Part shown: piece after piece, positions 20,093 through 27,148 of the stretch
Numbering within the stretch: the first letter of the stretch is position 1
How the letters are laid out: every line of letters starts with the position of its first letter
The notes under the pieces: generated by a model
The model's input: only the letters and a program-made list of their open reading frames with translations
Told to the model about the DNA's origin: nothing
The model's database searches: none
Origin: Nocardioides cavernae
GTDB lineage: Bacteria > Actinomycetota > Actinomycetes > Propionibacteriales > Nocardioidaceae
DNA length: 64,000 nt
NCBI RefSeq assembly: GCF_016907475.1
Contig: NZ_JAFBCA010000001.1
Location: 3,906,001 to 3,970,000, forward strand
Reading direction: 5' to 3'
Translations under genes and position numbers: made by a program

Positions 20093-21166
20093 TCAGCCCT
20101 CCAGGGCCGCGAGCCGGGCGGCCATGTCGGTCTCCACGCACGAGTCGAGGACCGGCTTGAGGTCGCCGTCGAGCACCTGGTCGAGGTTGTAGGACTTGTA
20201 GCCGGTGCGGTGGTCGGAGATCCGGTTCTCGGGGAAGTTGTAGGTCCGGATCCGCTCGGAGCGGTCGACCGTGCGGACCTGCGACTTGCGGGCCTCGCTG
20301 GCCTCGGCGTCGGCGGCGTCCTGCGCGACCTGGAGCAGCCGGGCACGCAGGATGCGCATCGCCTGCTCCTTGTTCTGCAGCTGGCTCTTCTCGTTCTGGC
20401 AGCTCGCGACGATGCCGGTGGGCACGTGGGTGATCCGGACGGCGGAGTCGGTGGTGTTGACGCTCTGCCCGCCGGGGCCGCTGGAGCGGAAGACGTCGAT
20501 GCGCAGGTCGTTGTCGTTGATCTCGACGTCGACCTGCTCGGCCTCGGGCATCACCAGCACCCCCGCGGCGGAGGTGTGGACACGTCCCTGCGACTCGGTG
20601 ACGGGCACCCGCTGGACGCGGTGCACGCCGCCCTCGAACTTCAGCAGGGCGTACGGCGCCTGGCCGGGCTCGACGGTCCCCCGGGCCTTGACGGCCGCGG
20701 TGACGGACTTGTAGCCGCCGAGGTCGGACTCGGTGGCGTCGAGCACCTCGACGCTCCAGCCGCGGGTCTCGGCGTAGCGGGAGTACATCCGCAGGAGGTC
20801 GCCGGCGAAGAGCGCGGACTCCTCACCACCCTCCCCCGACTTGATCTCGAGCAGCGCGTCCTTGCCGTCGGAGGGGTCGCGGGGCACCAGCAGCCGGCGC
20901 AGCCGCTCCCCCGCGGCGTCGCGCCTCTTGGCGAGGTCGTCGGCCTCCTGCGCGAAGGCGGGGTCGTCGGAGGCCAGCTCGCGTGCCGCCTCGATGTCAT
21001 CGCCCAGGCGGAGCCACTCCTGCCAGGTCGTCACCACGGCCGTCAGCTCTGCGTAGCGCTGGTTGAGCTGCTTGGCGAGGCGCTGGTCGGCGTGGGTCTC
21101 GGGGAGCGAGAGACGTCGCTCGAGGTCGGCGTGCTCCTCGCGCATGCCCTCGACGGCTTCGAACAA
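20093..21166 (-). CDS. prfA: Peptide chain release factor 1
   Basis: A 357-residue class I release factor. [15 protein letters not shown] contains the GGQ that triggers peptide release; the codon-recognition part has the PAT-like anticodon region expected for UAA/UAG. The start appears to be TTG at 21166, supported by CGAGGAGCACCG just before it; a later ATG at MREEHADLE is possible but would cut the conserved first helix. prmC follows directly, so factor and methylase are co-expressed. Confidence 0.94.
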
Positions 21167-21628: not shown

Positions 21629-23500
21629 TCAGCGGGCGCCGACGACCTTGGTCACGGCCTGCGGGGAGTCGGCTGCGGCGAGCTGCTTGCGCAGGTCGCC
21701 GACGACCGCGCCCTCGGCCGGGGCGAGCAGCTTCTCCTCGTGCCGGGTGCCCGAGGCCGCGATGTCGACCGCGGGGACGATGCCCTTCGCAGCGCGCTCG
21801 GCGCTGAGCACCAGCTCGAGGTTGGCGGCGCCTGCGAGCTCCTCCAGGAAGAACTCGTCAGTGGCCGAGCCGGTGCCGACGGCCACGGTCGCCAGGATGG
21901 TCAGCGAGCCGCCGTCCTCGACCGCGCGGGCAGCGCCGAAGAACTCCTTAGCCGGGTGGACGGCGGATGCGTCGACGAGGCCGGCCAGGACGCGGCCGTT
22001 GGCCGGCGCGGCGAGGTTGTAGGCCCGCCCGAGGCGCGTGAGCGAGTCCAGCAGGACGACCACGTCGTGGCCGAGCTCGACGAGCCGCTTGGCGCGCTCG
22101 ATGGCCAGCTCGGCGACCAGGGTGTGGTCGGCTGGCTGCCGGTCGAAGGTCGAGGCGACGACCTCGCCCTTGACGGCCCGCTGGTAGTCGGTGACCTCCT
22201 CCGGGCGGGTGTCGACCAGCACCACCATGACGTGGCACTCCGGGTTGTTGGCCGTCACCGACTGGGCGATCGACTGGAAGAGCGTGGTGGCGCCGGTGCG
22301 CGGCGGAGCGAGGACCAGTCCTCGCTGGCCCTTGCCCACCGGGGCGGCGACGTCGACGACCCGACCGATCAGGTCGGCGTCCGAGGCCAGGCGCAGCCGC
22401 TGGTGCGGGTGGACCGGGACCGCGTCGGCGAAGTCCGGGCGCTCCTTGGCGCCCTCGGCCTCGGTGCCGTTGACGCTGTCGATGCGGACCATCGGGTTGA
22501 ACTTCTCCCGACGCTCGCCCTCGCGCGGCTGGCGCACCTGACCGACCACGGCGTCACCGCGGCGGAGGTGGTACTTGCGGACCATCGACAGCGACAGGTA
22601 GACGTCCTCCGGGCCGGGGAGGTAGCCCGACGTGCGCACGAACGCGCAGTTGTCGAGCACGTCGAGGATGCCGGCGGCCGGCACCAGGACGTCGTCCTCC
22701 AGGATCGTGGTGTCGGGCTCGTTGCGGCTGCCGCTCTGGCGGGGCAACGTCCGGTCGCGTCCGCGGCGGCGGCGGTTGCGACGGCTGCCGCCCTCGCCGT
22801 CCTCGTCGTCGTCGGACTGGTGCTGGGCCTGCTGGTCCTGGCGGTTCTGGTCCTGGCGGGCCTGGTCCTGCCGGCTCTGGTCCTGCCGGTTCTGGTCACG
22901 GTCCTGCTTGCCCTGCGGGTTCTGCTGCTGGTTCTGCTTGCCCTGCTTCTGGCCCTGGTCCTGCTTCTGGCCCTGGTCCTGCTTCTGGCCCTGGTCCTGC
23001 TTCTGGCCCTGCTGCTTGTCCGACTTCTTCTGGTCCTGCTTCTCGGACCGCTCGGGCTTCTGCTCGGGCTTCTGCTCGGCGCGCTGTTCGGGCCGGTCCT
23101 CGGGCTGCTGCTCCGACCGCTCGGCCTGCTGCTCTGCCTGGCGCTGCTTGCGGGTGCGAGTGCGCACCGTCGTCTGCGGCGCCGGCTCGGCGGCCGCGGC
23201 GGTCTCCGCGGACTGCGCCTGCTGCTGGGCCGGCTTCTCCTGCTGCTCGGCCGGCTGCTCCTGCTTCTTGACCGGCTGCTCGGACCGGGTCGGCTGCGCC
23301 GACTGGGCCGGGGCGCCACCGGACTGACTCGCGCGGATGGCGTCCACGAGCTGCGCCTTCTTCATCGAGCCCGCTCCGGCGATGCCGAGGCCCGCGGCCA
23401 TCGACTTCAGGTCAGCCAGGAGCATGGAACTGAGCCCACCCGACTTCTTGGCAGGCTTGGTGGCAGCGTTCTCCGCAGGAGCAGAGGGGGTCTCGGTCAC
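21629..23500 (-). CDS. rho: Transcription termination factor Rho, with altered ATPase residues
   Basis: A 623-residue Rho in the canonical locus. After a SAP-like N-terminal helix region comes a long Q/K/R/D-rich insert (about residues 60-260), then the RNA-binding domain (RTSGYLPGPEDVY) and the ATPase core. From the P-loop to the arginine finger it aligns with E. coli Rho at a constant offset of 220. K181 is R401, the Walker A lysine K184 is A404 (PPRTGATT), the catalytic E211 is T431 (DTRPEEV), K326 is A546 and R353 is G573. R212, D265, R269 and R366 are kept. ATP hydrolysis is therefore doubtful. The GTG start at 23500 follows AAGGA. A second, active rho elsewhere is possible. Confidence 0.88.
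   Translation of the reverse strand: MTETPSAPAENAATKPAKKSGGLSSMLLADLKSMAAGLGIAGAGSMKKAQLVDAIRASQSGGAPAQSAQPTRSEQPVKKQEQPAEQQEKPAQQQAQSAETAAAAEPAPQTTVRTRTRKQRQAEQQAERSEQQPEDRPEQRAEQKPEQKPERSEKQDQKKSDKQQGQKQDQGQKQDQGQKQDQGQKQGKQNQQQNPQGKQDRDQNRQDQSRQDQARQDQNRQDQQAQHQSDDDEDGEGGSRRNRRRRGRDRTLPRQSGSRNEPDTTILEDDVLVPAAGILDVLDNCAFVRTSGYLPGPEDVYLSLSMVRKYHLRRGDAVVGQVRQPREGERREKFNPMVRIDSVNGTEAEGAKERPDFADAVPVHPHQRLRLASDADLIGRVVDVAAPVGKGQRGLVLAPPRTGATTLFQSIAQSVTANNPECHVMVVLVDTRPEEVTDYQRAVKGEVVASTFDRQPADHTLVAELAIERAKRLVELGHDVVVLLDSLTRLGRAYNLAAPANGRVLAGLVDASAVHPAKEFFGAARAVEDGGSLTILATVAVGTGSATDEFFLEELAGAANLELVLSAERAAKGIVPAVDIAASGTRHEEKLLAPAEGAVVGDLRKQLAAADSPQAVTKVVGAR
22943..23010. repeat. 18-bp tandem repeat inside rho
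   Basis: CTGCTTCTGGCCCTGGTC at 22943-22960, 22961-22978 and 22979-22996, plus 14 bases of a fourth copy. It encodes repeats of DQGQKQ in the disordered insert of Rho, in frame, so copy-number change would alter only linker length. Confidence 0.85.
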
Positions 23501-23704
23501 GTGGGTCCTTCGCACGTTGCGTCGCCTCCCGGACCGGTCGAACGGCCGGCGAGGCGGATGGTGGGTCCCGTCCACGCGGACCTCGAGACATCGCGAGGAC
23601 GGGGACGGGCAGGTACGCCGATCGGCGCGCGGTCAGGTTAGCAGGCGCTCGGCTGACCGAGAGCCGGACGGTGCGGAAGAGCGGCCTCGACCGCCCGGCA
23701 CCTG

Positions 23705-23844: not shown

Positions 23845-24741
23845 TCAGGTGAGCCGTGCGCCGTCGACGTCGATCGACAGCTGGTGCGGGGTCCACCCGC
23901 TCGGGCACCGTGACAGCAGGTCGGAGGTGTCGGAGGAGCCGAAGGCCAGCACGGTCGGGCCGGCGCCGGAGACGACGGCGGGCACGCCCTCGGCGCGCAG
24001 GCGTCGTACGAGCGCCAGCGTCTCGGGCATCGCGGGTTCGCGCTGGTCCTGGTGGAGCCAGTCGCGGGTCGCGGCGAGCAGGTGCTCGGGCTGCCCGTTG
24101 AGGGCGGCGACCAGCAGGGCGGCGCGGCCGGAGTTGGCGGCGGCGTCGGCGTGGGGCACGACGTCGGGCAGCAGGCCGCGGGCGACCTTCGTCTCGACCC
24201 CGGTGGGCGGGACGAACACCACGGCGGTGACCCGGGGGTCGACCCCGGCCCGGACGGCGTACCAGTGCCCGTCCTCGCGGCCGGAGATCACGAACCCGCC
24301 GTAGAACGCCGGGGCGACGTTGTCGGGGTGGCCCTCGAGGTCGGCGGCGAGGTCGAAGAGCGCCTCGTCGGAGGCGAGCAGCTGGCCGCCCGCGACCAGC
24401 GCCCGCGCCAGGACGACGCCCGCGACGATCGCGGCGGACGACGACCCGAGGCCGCGGGCGTGCGGGACGACGTTGCGGCACGCCAGGCGCAGGCCGGGCG
24501 GCTGCTCCCCCATCAGCTCGAAGGCCGCGCGCATGGAGCGGACCACCAGGTGCGACTCGTCGCGCGGCACGCCCTCGGCACCCGCCCCTTCGACCTCGAC
24601 CACCAGGCCCTCGGGCAGCACCTCCGCCTCGAGCTCGTCGCGCAGCGACAGCGCCAGGCCGAGGCTGTCGAAGCCCGGGCCGAGGTTGGCCGAGGTGGCC
24701 GGGACCGAGACCCGCACCGGCCCGTCGACGAACTGCGCCAT
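23845..24741 (-). CDS. thrB: Homoserine kinase
   Basis: A 298-residue GHMP-family kinase. N-terminal PATSANLGPGFDSLGLAL and the ATP loop PHARGLGSSSAA are diagnostic, with GAGPTVLAF near the C-terminus. It phosphorylates homoserine for threonine synthesis. The ATG at 24741 overlaps the thrC stop (ATGA). It ends the argS-lysA-hom-thrC-thrB run. Confidence 0.95.
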   Translation of the reverse strand: MAQFVDGPVRVSVPATSANLGPGFDSLGLALSLRDELEAEVLPEGLVVEVEGAGAEGVPRDESHLVVRSMRAAFELMGEQPPGLRLACRNVVPHARGLGSSSAAIVAGVVLARALVAGGQLLASDEALFDLAADLEGHPDNVAPAFYGGFVISGREDGHWYAVRAGVDPRVTAVVFVPPTGVETKVARGLLPDVVPHADAAANSGRAALLVAALNGQPEHLLAATRDWLHQDQREPAMPETLALVRRLRAEGVPAVVSGAGPTVLAFGSSDTSDLLSRCPSGWTPHQLSIDVDGARLT

Positions 24742-25835
24742 CAGGAGAGGCCGGCTGCGGCGGCTGCCGCGTCGACGTCGGCGTCGACGACCGTGTCGAC
24801 CAGGTCGCCGCAGGACTCCAGCGCGGTCGCTGTGTCCTTGAGGCCGTGGCCGGTGACGGTGATCGCCACCGTGGCGCCGGAGAACACCTGCCCGGACTCC
24901 AGAGCGGCGAGCAGGCCGGCGACGCCCGCGGCCGAGGCGGGCTCGACGAAGACGCCGTCGTTGCGGGCGAGCTCGATCTGCGCGGCGAGGATCTGGGCAT
25001 CGGAGAGGGCCGCGAAGCCGCCCTCGGACTCCTTGGCCGCCTGCTCGGCGAGGTGCCACGACGCCGGGTTGCCGACCCGGATCGCGGTCGCCTTGGTCTC
25101 CGGGTCGGGGAACGGCTCACCGGTCACCAGCGGCGCCGCACCCTCGGCCTGGAAGCCGAGCATCCTCGGGCGCTTCGTGGCCCGGCCGAGGTCGGCGTAC
25201 TGCTGGTAGCCGAGCCAGTAGGCGGAGATGTTGCCGGCGTTGCCGACGGGCAGCAGGTGGACGTCGGGGGCGTCGCCGAGGAAGTCGACGATCTCGAACG
25301 ACGCGGTCTTCTGCCCCTGCAGGCGGACCGGGTTGACCGAGTTCACGAGCTCGACCGAATAGCTCTTCGAGAGGCCGATGGCCATCGACAGGCAGTCGTC
25401 GAAGTTGCCCCGGACCATGATCACCTGGGCGCCGTGCACGACCGCCTGGGCGAGCTTGCCGGCGGCGATCTTGCCCTCGGGGATGAGCACCAGCGGCTTG
25501 AGACCCGCCTTCGCGGCGTACGCCGCCATCGAGGCCGACGTGTTGCCCGTCGAGGCGCACACGACGGCCTCGGCGCCGAGGTGCCGGGCGTGGGAGATCG
25601 CGGCCGTCATGCCGCGGTCCTTGAACGAGCCGGTCGGGTTGTCGCCCTCGACCTTGAGCCACACCTCTCCCCCGGTGAGCCCGGAGAGCCACTCGGAGTG
25701 GACGAGGGGCGTCCCGCCCTCGCGGAGCGTCACGGCGGGGATCCCCTCGGGGAGGTCGAGGAGGTCGCGGTACTCCTCGATCACGCCGCGCCACTGGTGG
25801 GTGCCGGTCCCGGCGCCCATGCCGCCGCCGGTCAC
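24741..25835 (-). CDS. thrC: Threonine synthase
   Basis: A 364-residue PLP enzyme of fold type II. The PLP lysine is in [11 protein letters not shown], followed by the ASTGNTSAS phosphate-binding segment and [11 protein letters not shown]. It converts O-phosphohomoserine to threonine. The GTG at 25835 overlaps the hom stop (GTGA); a GTG or ATG a few codons in is possible. Length matches the short actinobacterial form. Confidence 0.95.
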
Positions 25836-27148
25836 TCCTCGCCTCCCTCGACGCGCATCACTGACGTGACCTCACGGACGATGTCCATGCTGCGGAGCTG
25901 GTCGACCGTCGCGCTGAGCGCGGCGTCGGGGGCGGCGTGCGAGACGACCACGAGCTGGGCGTCGGCGCCGCGACCCTCCTGGCGCACGGTCTGGATCGAC
26001 ACGTCGTGGTCGGCGAAGGCGTTGGCCACCGCCGCGAGCACGCCGGCGCGGTCGTCGACGTCGATCGCCACGTGGTAGCGGGTCCGGGTCTCCCCCATCG
26101 GCAGGACCGCGCGGTCGGCGTAGGCCGACTCACCGGCGCCCCGCGTCTCGGCGAGGCGGTTGCGCGCGACCGTGACGAGGTCGCCCAGCACGGCGCTCGC
26201 CGTGGGTGCGCCGCCGGCGCCTGGTCCGTAGAACATGAGCTGCCCGGCGGCCTCCGACTCGACGAAGACCGCGTTGTAGGCCTCGCGGACGCTCGCCAGC
26301 GGGTGCGAGCGCGGGATCATCGCCGGGTGGACCCGCGCGGCGACCTGCTCCTGGCCGTCGGGGCCCGGGCGGAGCTCGCAGATGGCGAGCAGCTTGACCA
26401 CGGAGTCCATGTCGCGGGCGCTGGCGACGTCGGCGGCGGTGACCTCGGAGATGCCCTCGCGGTAGACGTCGGCGGCGGTCACGCGCGAGTGGAAGGCGAG
26501 GCTGGCGAGGATCGCCGCCTTGGCTGCGGCGTCGAAGCCCTCGACGTCGGCCGTCGGGTCGGCCTCGGCGTAGCCGAGCTGCTGGGCCTCCTCGAGCGCC
26601 TCGGAGAAGCCGGCGCCGGAGGTGTCCATCTTGTCGAGGATGAAGTTGGTGGTGCCATTGACGATGCCCAGCACGCGGGTGACGCGGTCGCCGGCAAGCG
26701 ACTCGCGCAGCGGTCGCAGGATCGGGATCGCTCCCGCGACGGCGGCCTCGTAGTAGAGGTCGCGCTCGGCCTTGGCGGCCGCCTCGAAGAGGGTCGGGCC
26801 GTCCTCGGCGAGCAGGGCCTTGTTGGCCGTCACCACGCTCGCGCCGTTGTCGAGCGCGGAGAGGATGAGCGACCGGGCGGGCTCGATGCCGCCGATCACC
26901 TCGACGACGAGGTCGACGTCGTCGCGGGCGACCAGGCCCTGCGCGTCGGTCGTCAGCAGGCCGTCGGGCACGTCGACGTCGCGGGCGGCGTCAAGGCGTC
27001 GTACGGCGACTCCCACCAGCTCGACGGGCGCACCCACGCGCGCGGCCAGGTCGTCGTGCTGCTCGCTGAGCAGCCGCACCACCTGGGACCCGACCGCACC
27101 GCAGCCGAGCACCGCCACCTTCAAGGTGCGCTTGTCACCGAAACTCAT
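25832..27148 (-). CDS. hom: Homoserine dehydrogenase
   Basis: A 438-residue enzyme. An NAD(P)-binding domain ([12 protein letters not shown]), catalytic region with [13 protein letters not shown], and a C-terminal ACT domain (about 355-430, starting [16 protein letters not shown]) that usually gives threonine feedback inhibition. It reduces aspartate semialdehyde to homoserine. The start overlaps the lysA stop (ATGA) and its own stop overlaps thrC, so the four genes are one translationally coupled unit. Confidence 0.95.

Follow-up and report, generated by a model that had tools for sequence, protein, structure and literature searches.

Catalytically silent members are known within the motor fold of Rho: the alpha subunit of the F1-ATPase is non-catalytic, keeps its P-loop and has a catalytic partner beside it. 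A 2021 paper by Said reportedly carries translocation-independent RNAP inactivation in its title. In the available text of PMC8964686 a stand-by Rho that pre-binds RNAP is described in E. coli, and in that of PMC8828861 Rho is called essential in other Actinobacteria. Engineered enzymes are described in the available sections of PMC4499133: mutation of the catalytic glutamate alone abolishes ATP hydrolysis in Rho of both E. coli and M. tuberculosis; the E386A variant of the latter, which corresponds to E211A, shows no ATPase, unwinding or termination activity in vitro, while its oligomeric state is unaltered and it still binds RNA (Kd 5.3 vs. 3.5 nM); and the ATPase of E. coli K326A is down by about 75%. 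A natural ATPase-dead sole Rho was not reported in the available text of the literature searched, which included PMC4167861, PMC11829017, PMC13323073 and PMC9908020, the D'Heygere 2013 distribution survey lying outside this scope.

The Rho analyzed here is encoded in the window, i.e., the whole 64,000-nt stretch of Nocardioides cavernae DNA under study, in the gene order lysA, hom, thrC, rho, prfA, prmC and a tsaC-like gene, the usual actinobacterial rho locus. The features of the locus are as follows:

20093..21166, (-) strand, prfA (release factor 1), neighbour and yardstick of constraint
21629..23500, (-) strand, rho, 623 aa from the GTG at 23500, the sole Rho found in the genome
21743..21745, (-) strand, arginine finger R366, kept in 35/35 members of the clade described below
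21776..21784, (-) strand, R353G and F355V
21863..21877, (-) strand, R-loop of the secondary RNA site, K326A
22196..22213, (-) strand, DTRPEE, catalytic Glu211 replaced by Thr, R212 kept
22283..22306, (-) strand, degenerate Walker A PPRTGATT, residues 399-406, K181R and K184A
22454..22675, (-) strand, RNA-binding cold-shock domain (CSD), primary RNA site, residues 276-349 (PF07497)
22676..23320, (-) strand, Gln-rich N-terminal insertion, residues 61-275, with an Arg-rich stretch at its end (from translation and composition)
23321..23434, (-) strand, Rho_N domain, residues 23-60 (Pfam PF07498)
24741..25835, (-) strand, thrC (threonine synthase), neighbour
25832..27148, (-) strand, hom (homoserine dehydrogenase), neighbour

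The rho frame is open to the first in-frame GTG (21629-23575 (-), 648 aa), and the Rho_N, cold-shock RNA-binding and RecA-like motor (residues 380-583, PF00006) domains are all present in canonical order. The closest PDB match of the protein is M. tuberculosis Rho 7oqh (E 1.5e-146), and it is a true orthologue by descent, at the usual locus. It resembles the canonical Rho of E. coli and M. tuberculosis (PDB 1pv4 and 7oqh) in domain order, RNA-binding domain and most of the motor sequence, but it lacks the Walker A lysine, the catalytic Glu, the R-loop Lys, R347, R353 and F355. The equivalog cut-off of TIGR00767 (NCBIfam) was not reached (472.8 vs. 509.45 bits), and the PRK09376 model was passed (422.8 vs. 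315). The short paralogue Rho2 (NCBIfam NF041509) belongs to the same Rho family, but the window Rho scored below its cut-off (442.2 vs. 628 bits), is full-length and is single copy. An AlphaFold model of the core was of low confidence (mean pLDDT 64, pTM 0.44), and the 50 Foldseek matches listed for this model were all Rho, at a TM of only about 0.4. The N-terminal insertion was taken as disordered, judging from its composition; near-tandem Gln/Asp/Lys units (KQDQGQ) were observed within it. Of the 80 sequences screened (79 named loci and the window), 75 have the neighbouring gene prfA and 75 have thrC. In actinobacteria rpmE usually adjoins rho; two database proteins, P0013 and P0100 (491 and 476 aa), carry a ribosomal protein L31 domain (PF01197) together with Rho domains, which is a possible fusion or annotation run-on.

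Alignment with E. coli and M. tuberculosis Rho supported a constant offset of 220 to E. coli numbering. As the initial annotation had read, the P-loop is PPRTGATT and the catalytic-Glu motif, which starts at residue 430, is DTRPEEV, and the alignments agree with its K181R, K184A, E211T, K326A and R353G and with the retention of R212, D265, R269 and R366; T185 is retained as well. All the changes that it had stated were correct, but the damage was understated, because K336A, R347A, F355V, D322G and G288L had been missed. R353 and F355 are residues of the nucleotide pocket. As judged from these alignments, both the ATP pocket (K184, E211, R347, R353, F355) and the inner RNA site (K326, K336 and the Q-loop G288) are altered in the sole Rho found in a 35-genome clade, and by the residues tested the window Rho falls outside the definition of a Rho-type RNA-dependent ATPase. 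The loss of K326 is a weak criterion here, because this position is T in M. tuberculosis Rho and other than K (R, T or A) in 14 of the 30 actinomycetes aligned from other families.

The clade was recognized on a tree of the rho core from which the catalytic columns were omitted, where the window falls inside the genus in a group of 35 genomes (SH-aLRT 100) with relatives that include Nocardioides zhouii, N. alpinus, N. pini, N. hwasunensis and N. flavus; genomes G163, G144 and G002 were left out of this tree, and the Rho of G002 is intact. K184 is absent in 35/35 members (A in 26, T in 7 and V in 2), position 211 is T in 21 and A in 14, position 326 is A in 34 and Q in one, and position 336 is A in 27, S in 4, T in 2, and E and R in one each. 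R181 is fixed in 35/35, the Walker B D265, R212 and R366 are present in 35/35 and the arginine valve R269 in 33/35. As K184 and E211 are missing in all 35 Nocardioides genomes of the clade, a sequencing error, which had been named as a finding that would overturn the observation, and chance are ruled out. Conservation of the substituted A404 and T431 across the genus had been put forward as a sign of a real altered function: the loss is indeed fixed in the clade, but it is not genus-wide and the substituting residue drifts, and since the residues at 184 and 211 drift a precisely re-tuned chemistry is disfavoured. In 47 of 236 positions whose conservation among 75 ancestral-like genomes is 97% or more, the clade has a different majority residue, and many of these positions lie in the Walker A, the Q and R loops and 336-356. 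The primary-site residues L58, F64, R66, D78, Y80, R102 and E108, and positions 105, 110 and 115, are kept as in the relatives, and the F62 position is Tyr in the relatives and Cys in 91% of the clade. The engineered E. coli E211A and M. tuberculosis E386A variants (PMC4499133, available sections) have lost the same residue, and Ala at 211 is natural in the 14 clade members mentioned above; the clade differs in that the loss is natural, is joined to that of K184, occurs in the sole copy found and is kept by selection.

Across the genus, 210 of 211 sequences could be scored at both sites, the one outside the residue counts (G163) stopping before K184. Both K184 and E211 are kept in 141 of the 210, both are missing in 43, K184 only in 25 and E211 only in one (in total, K184 is absent in 68 and E211 in 44), and the replacements at 184 are A (27), R (25), T (12), V (2), I (1) and G (1). 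On the rho core tree, a quick-method tree with some long branches and with outgroups that have K184, the state at 184 needs at least 10 changes, 3 of them forced by starred branches, and that at 211 needs 5, a count that is blind to gain versus loss. An independent tree built from prfA, hom, thrC and lysA of 65 named loci requires 6 changes at K184, 4 of them forced, and unites 25 clade loci (support 100); the 26th clade locus (L026) has no flanking genes and is outside this tree. K184 has changed several times, sister genera included. Among the nearest database proteins (the best 120 of 7999 scored, from several independent sources and enriched by construction) 105 of 120 are without K184. 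In a second Nocardioides lineage (G140, G092, G129, G005, G209 and G021) K184R, E211A and R269S occur together, a different route to probable ATPase death. In another genome (G137) the rho gene has an in-frame TGA inside the Rho match with K184 intact, which is either a sequencing error or a truncated Rho.

In a family search of 294 genomes, 126 were from other genera, and 115 of these 126 were matched, most of them scoring like an intact Rho. K184 is absent (R in 7, N in 3) in 10 of 20 aligned sequences from other Nocardioidaceae genera, a fraction that is not a rate since the 21 fetched were chosen for a low or lowish score, with the one found in two pieces (G330) not aligned. In five of these ten (L315-L319) the arginine finger R366 is also lost (N, H or L). 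Outside the family, a class search found Rho in 347 of 351 genomes of at least 95% completeness (weakest E 3.4e-173), and 30/30 aligned other-family actinomycetes, the ten weakest included, keep K184, T185, E211, R212 and D265, as well as K336, R347, R353, F355 and R366; K181 is E in one of the 30 and R269 is K in two. Because 30/30 of these keep both residues, the erosion of K184 and E211 is, in this sample, a Nocardioidaceae trait; the other 317 class genomes were judged by score alone, which could hide single-residue losses.

The genome of the window is a single contig of 4.85 Mb, 99.98% complete, with a single rho. A search with the PF00006 family gave three matches, one of them rho; the other two, which score 261 and 247 bits in open frames of 549 and 487 aa and are separated by about 2 kb, were taken for the F1 alpha and beta subunits by score and position only. 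When the nine best candidates per genome were scored with a threshold of E 1e-40 or better, 211 of the 215 genomes of the genus had a single Rho match, four had no match and none had two. Hence, no second Rho was found in the window genome or in any of the 215 genus genomes, and the proposal that the protein regulates a second Rho fails on this ground. Apparent pairs of rho pieces in G165 and G173 are parts of one split gene. A complete loss of rho in G119, G157, G048 and G089 was considered and rejected: G048 and G089 contain rho pieces, that of G048 at a contig end with prfA present, while G119 and G089 are without a true prfA (only a 41-42% relative) and G157 is without any prfA match. The missing full-length genes in these four genomes are read as assembly gaps, less certainly in G119, which is 99% complete.

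The sequence of the gene is not that of a decaying one. No stops were found in the rho core of 26 named clade loci, and the median pairwise dN/dS of rho in the clade is 0.113 (325 pairs), compared with 0.131 for prfA, 0.083 for hom, 0.192 for thrC and 0.169 for lysA (pairs, which are not independent, were limited to a dS of 0.05-0.9, or 0.02-1.5 for single domains). The initial view that the gene is not simply decaying thus holds in this clade. The ratio dN(rho)/dN(prfA) is 0.96 in the clade (299 pairs) vs. 0.72 in 12 ancestral-like species, that of rho to hom is 1.33 vs. 0.66 and that of rho to thrC is 0.58 vs. 0.54. Measured against its neighbours, Rho changes at a somewhat higher rate in the clade, yet by dN/dS its constraint is close to that of a release factor. 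In the rest of the genus rho seems looser, with a dN/dS of 0.41 vs. 0.32 for prfA in a further seven odd loci and of 0.31 vs. 0.28 in 37 GKT/DERPEE loci, all from distant pairs with dS near saturation and the latter from a mixed set.

The distribution of this constraint within the protein is the strongest result of the analysis. The median dN/dS of the CSD is 0.015 in the clade vs. 0.109 in ancestral-like relatives, and that of the motor is 0.107 vs. 0.132. Among 32 clade genomes, variable columns amount to 3/67 in the CSD vs. 64/212 in the motor (Fisher p 2.9e-6), and the pattern is reversed in the 32 most similar ancestral-like genomes, with 22/67 and 29/212 (p 9e-4), at a mean identity of 0.943 in the latter and 0.926 in the clade. 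With all 35 clade genomes the values are 8/67 and 85/212, and with all 75 ancestral-like genomes 36/67 and 81/212. Constraint has shifted from the motor to the RNA-binding domain in the clade. On these sequences, the CSD, the arginine finger and most of the fold are kept under purifying selection.

With regard to the transcription context, the KOW domain of NusG is unchanged, since a comparison of 15 clade with 15 ancestral-like NusGs gave one fixed difference, located just before KOW. A gain of T-tailed terminators in the clade was not found in 60 stretches of 20 kb with crude GC-frame gene calls: T-tailed hairpins at 3' ends amount to 2% or less per group, with at most 2/31 in any single Nocardioides genome, and hairpin strength does not differ between clade and intact genomes (p 0.49 convergent, 0.53 co-directional). 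Neither count supports compensation by intrinsic terminators, in a test that is too crude to be decisive. The coding-strand purine fraction is 0.485-0.489 in the clade (6 genomes), 0.4885-0.500 in intact genomes (5) and 0.487-0.495 in other losers (5), a weak and phylogenetically confounded drop, with overlapping ranges, in a measure that is likewise crude.

The loss of the ATP-burning residues together with the tightening of the RNA-gripping domain suggests that the sole Rho found works without its motor. Our main reading, to which we give a probability of roughly 0.6, is that the clade Rho is an orthologue that is no longer an ATP-driven RNA translocase and is kept as an RNA-binding, probably RNAP-associated factor. 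On the precedent of the E386A mutant (PMC4499133, available sections), RNA binding is probably kept and normal ATP hydrolysis very probably lost, in line with what had been proposed from the sequence, and ATP hydrolysis, unwinding and ATP-driven release of RNA polymerase would not be expected. The protein would bind RNA without translocating along transcripts, selection would retain it as an RNA-gripping ring or open ring, it would be recruited to transcription complexes as before via the unchanged NusG, and a Rho that does not move might pause, trap or shield transcripts. A roadblock, which had also been proposed from the sequence, is a conceivable role. Since NusG, its recruiter, is unchanged, we infer that the clade Rho still meets RNA polymerase. 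A more specific proposal, which we advance tentatively and at clearly less than even odds, is a lineage-wide motor-free control in which the sole Rho would capture nascent RNA and stall or inactivate RNAP without ATP-driven translocation, with the CSD frozen and the motor released. A motor-free Rho that traps or slows RNAP is the leading model because of the unchanged NusG and of the precedents of stand-by Rho and translocation-independent inactivation, where Rho acts on, or waits at, RNAP before translocation (PMC8964686, available text); those cases, however, concern the ATPase-proficient E. coli Rho, whereas the clade Rho is without the motor residues. Like the F1-ATPase alpha subunit, it would be a catalytically silent RecA-like ring subunit kept by selection, but no partner was found for it. 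Against a motor-less terminator, E386A is without efficient transcript release in vitro, so that it offers no positive precedent (PMC4499133, available sections). The motor half is still selected (dN/dS 0.107), clade rho is faster than ancestral-like rho relative to prfA, hom and thrC, and the genome-wide trace that would be expected is absent from the terminators and weak and confounded in the purine fraction; these points also speak against the motor-less reading.

A protein that had kept RNA binding and abandoned termination, acting as an RNA chaperone, a store or a condensate former that uses the Gln-rich insert, would agree with the CSD being the most constrained part and with the 190 residues preceding it being richer in Gln in the clade (25%) than in intact relatives (18%), but the insert is present in intact relatives too, the motor fold and R366 are kept, and the NusG KOW domain, which is known to recruit Rho, shows no change, although Rho is not the only partner of NusG; we regard such a role as unlikely. 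The fixed R181, which leaves slight room for a residual ATPase, and the conserved D265, R212 and R366, in a motor whose dN/dS is low, might indicate an unusual enzyme in which these residues still handle nucleotide with a slow or shifted chemistry. This seems quite improbable, given that the residues drift at 184 (A/T/V) and 211 (T/A), that F355, R347 and R353 are lost too, and that E211A or its equivalent alone kills hydrolysis in E. coli and M. tuberculosis (PMC4499133, available sections).

Slow terminal decay, with a Rho that the family can do without and a gene drifting to loss, could account for the recurrent stepwise erosion in the genus and sister genera and for rho exceeding prfA in dN/dS in the seven odd loci and the 37 GKT/DERPEE relatives. 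For the clade of the window it is scarcely credible: dN/dS is 0.11 and not near 1, no stops or frameshifted copies were seen, the CSD is nearly frozen, and gene loss is not convincing, since two of the four rho-less genomes hold pieces and the others are poorly assembled there. Finally, bicyclomycin or similar inhibitors from soil neighbours may have driven the change of the ATP pocket, which would be a driver rather than a function; the site where the inhibitor acts is within the ATPase pocket, and bicyclomycin is a product of some Streptomyces (PMC4499133 and PMC8828861, available text). We hold this to be a very improbable driver, because the loss of K184 and E211 costs the enzyme itself, the frozen CSD is left unexplained, and the insensitive M. 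tuberculosis Rho retains the inhibitor-binding side chains (PMC8828861, available text).

The annotation of these proteins as 'transcription termination factor Rho' masks the loss of their catalytic residues. It is disputed whether Rho has to travel along RNA to stop RNAP or can do so by binding and allostery. A culturable clade of these soil bacteria, in which the only Rho found carries textbook inactivating changes and is strongly selected, amounts to a natural experiment on this question. A factor that is called essential elsewhere in Actinobacteria can repeatedly shed its catalytic residues within one family.
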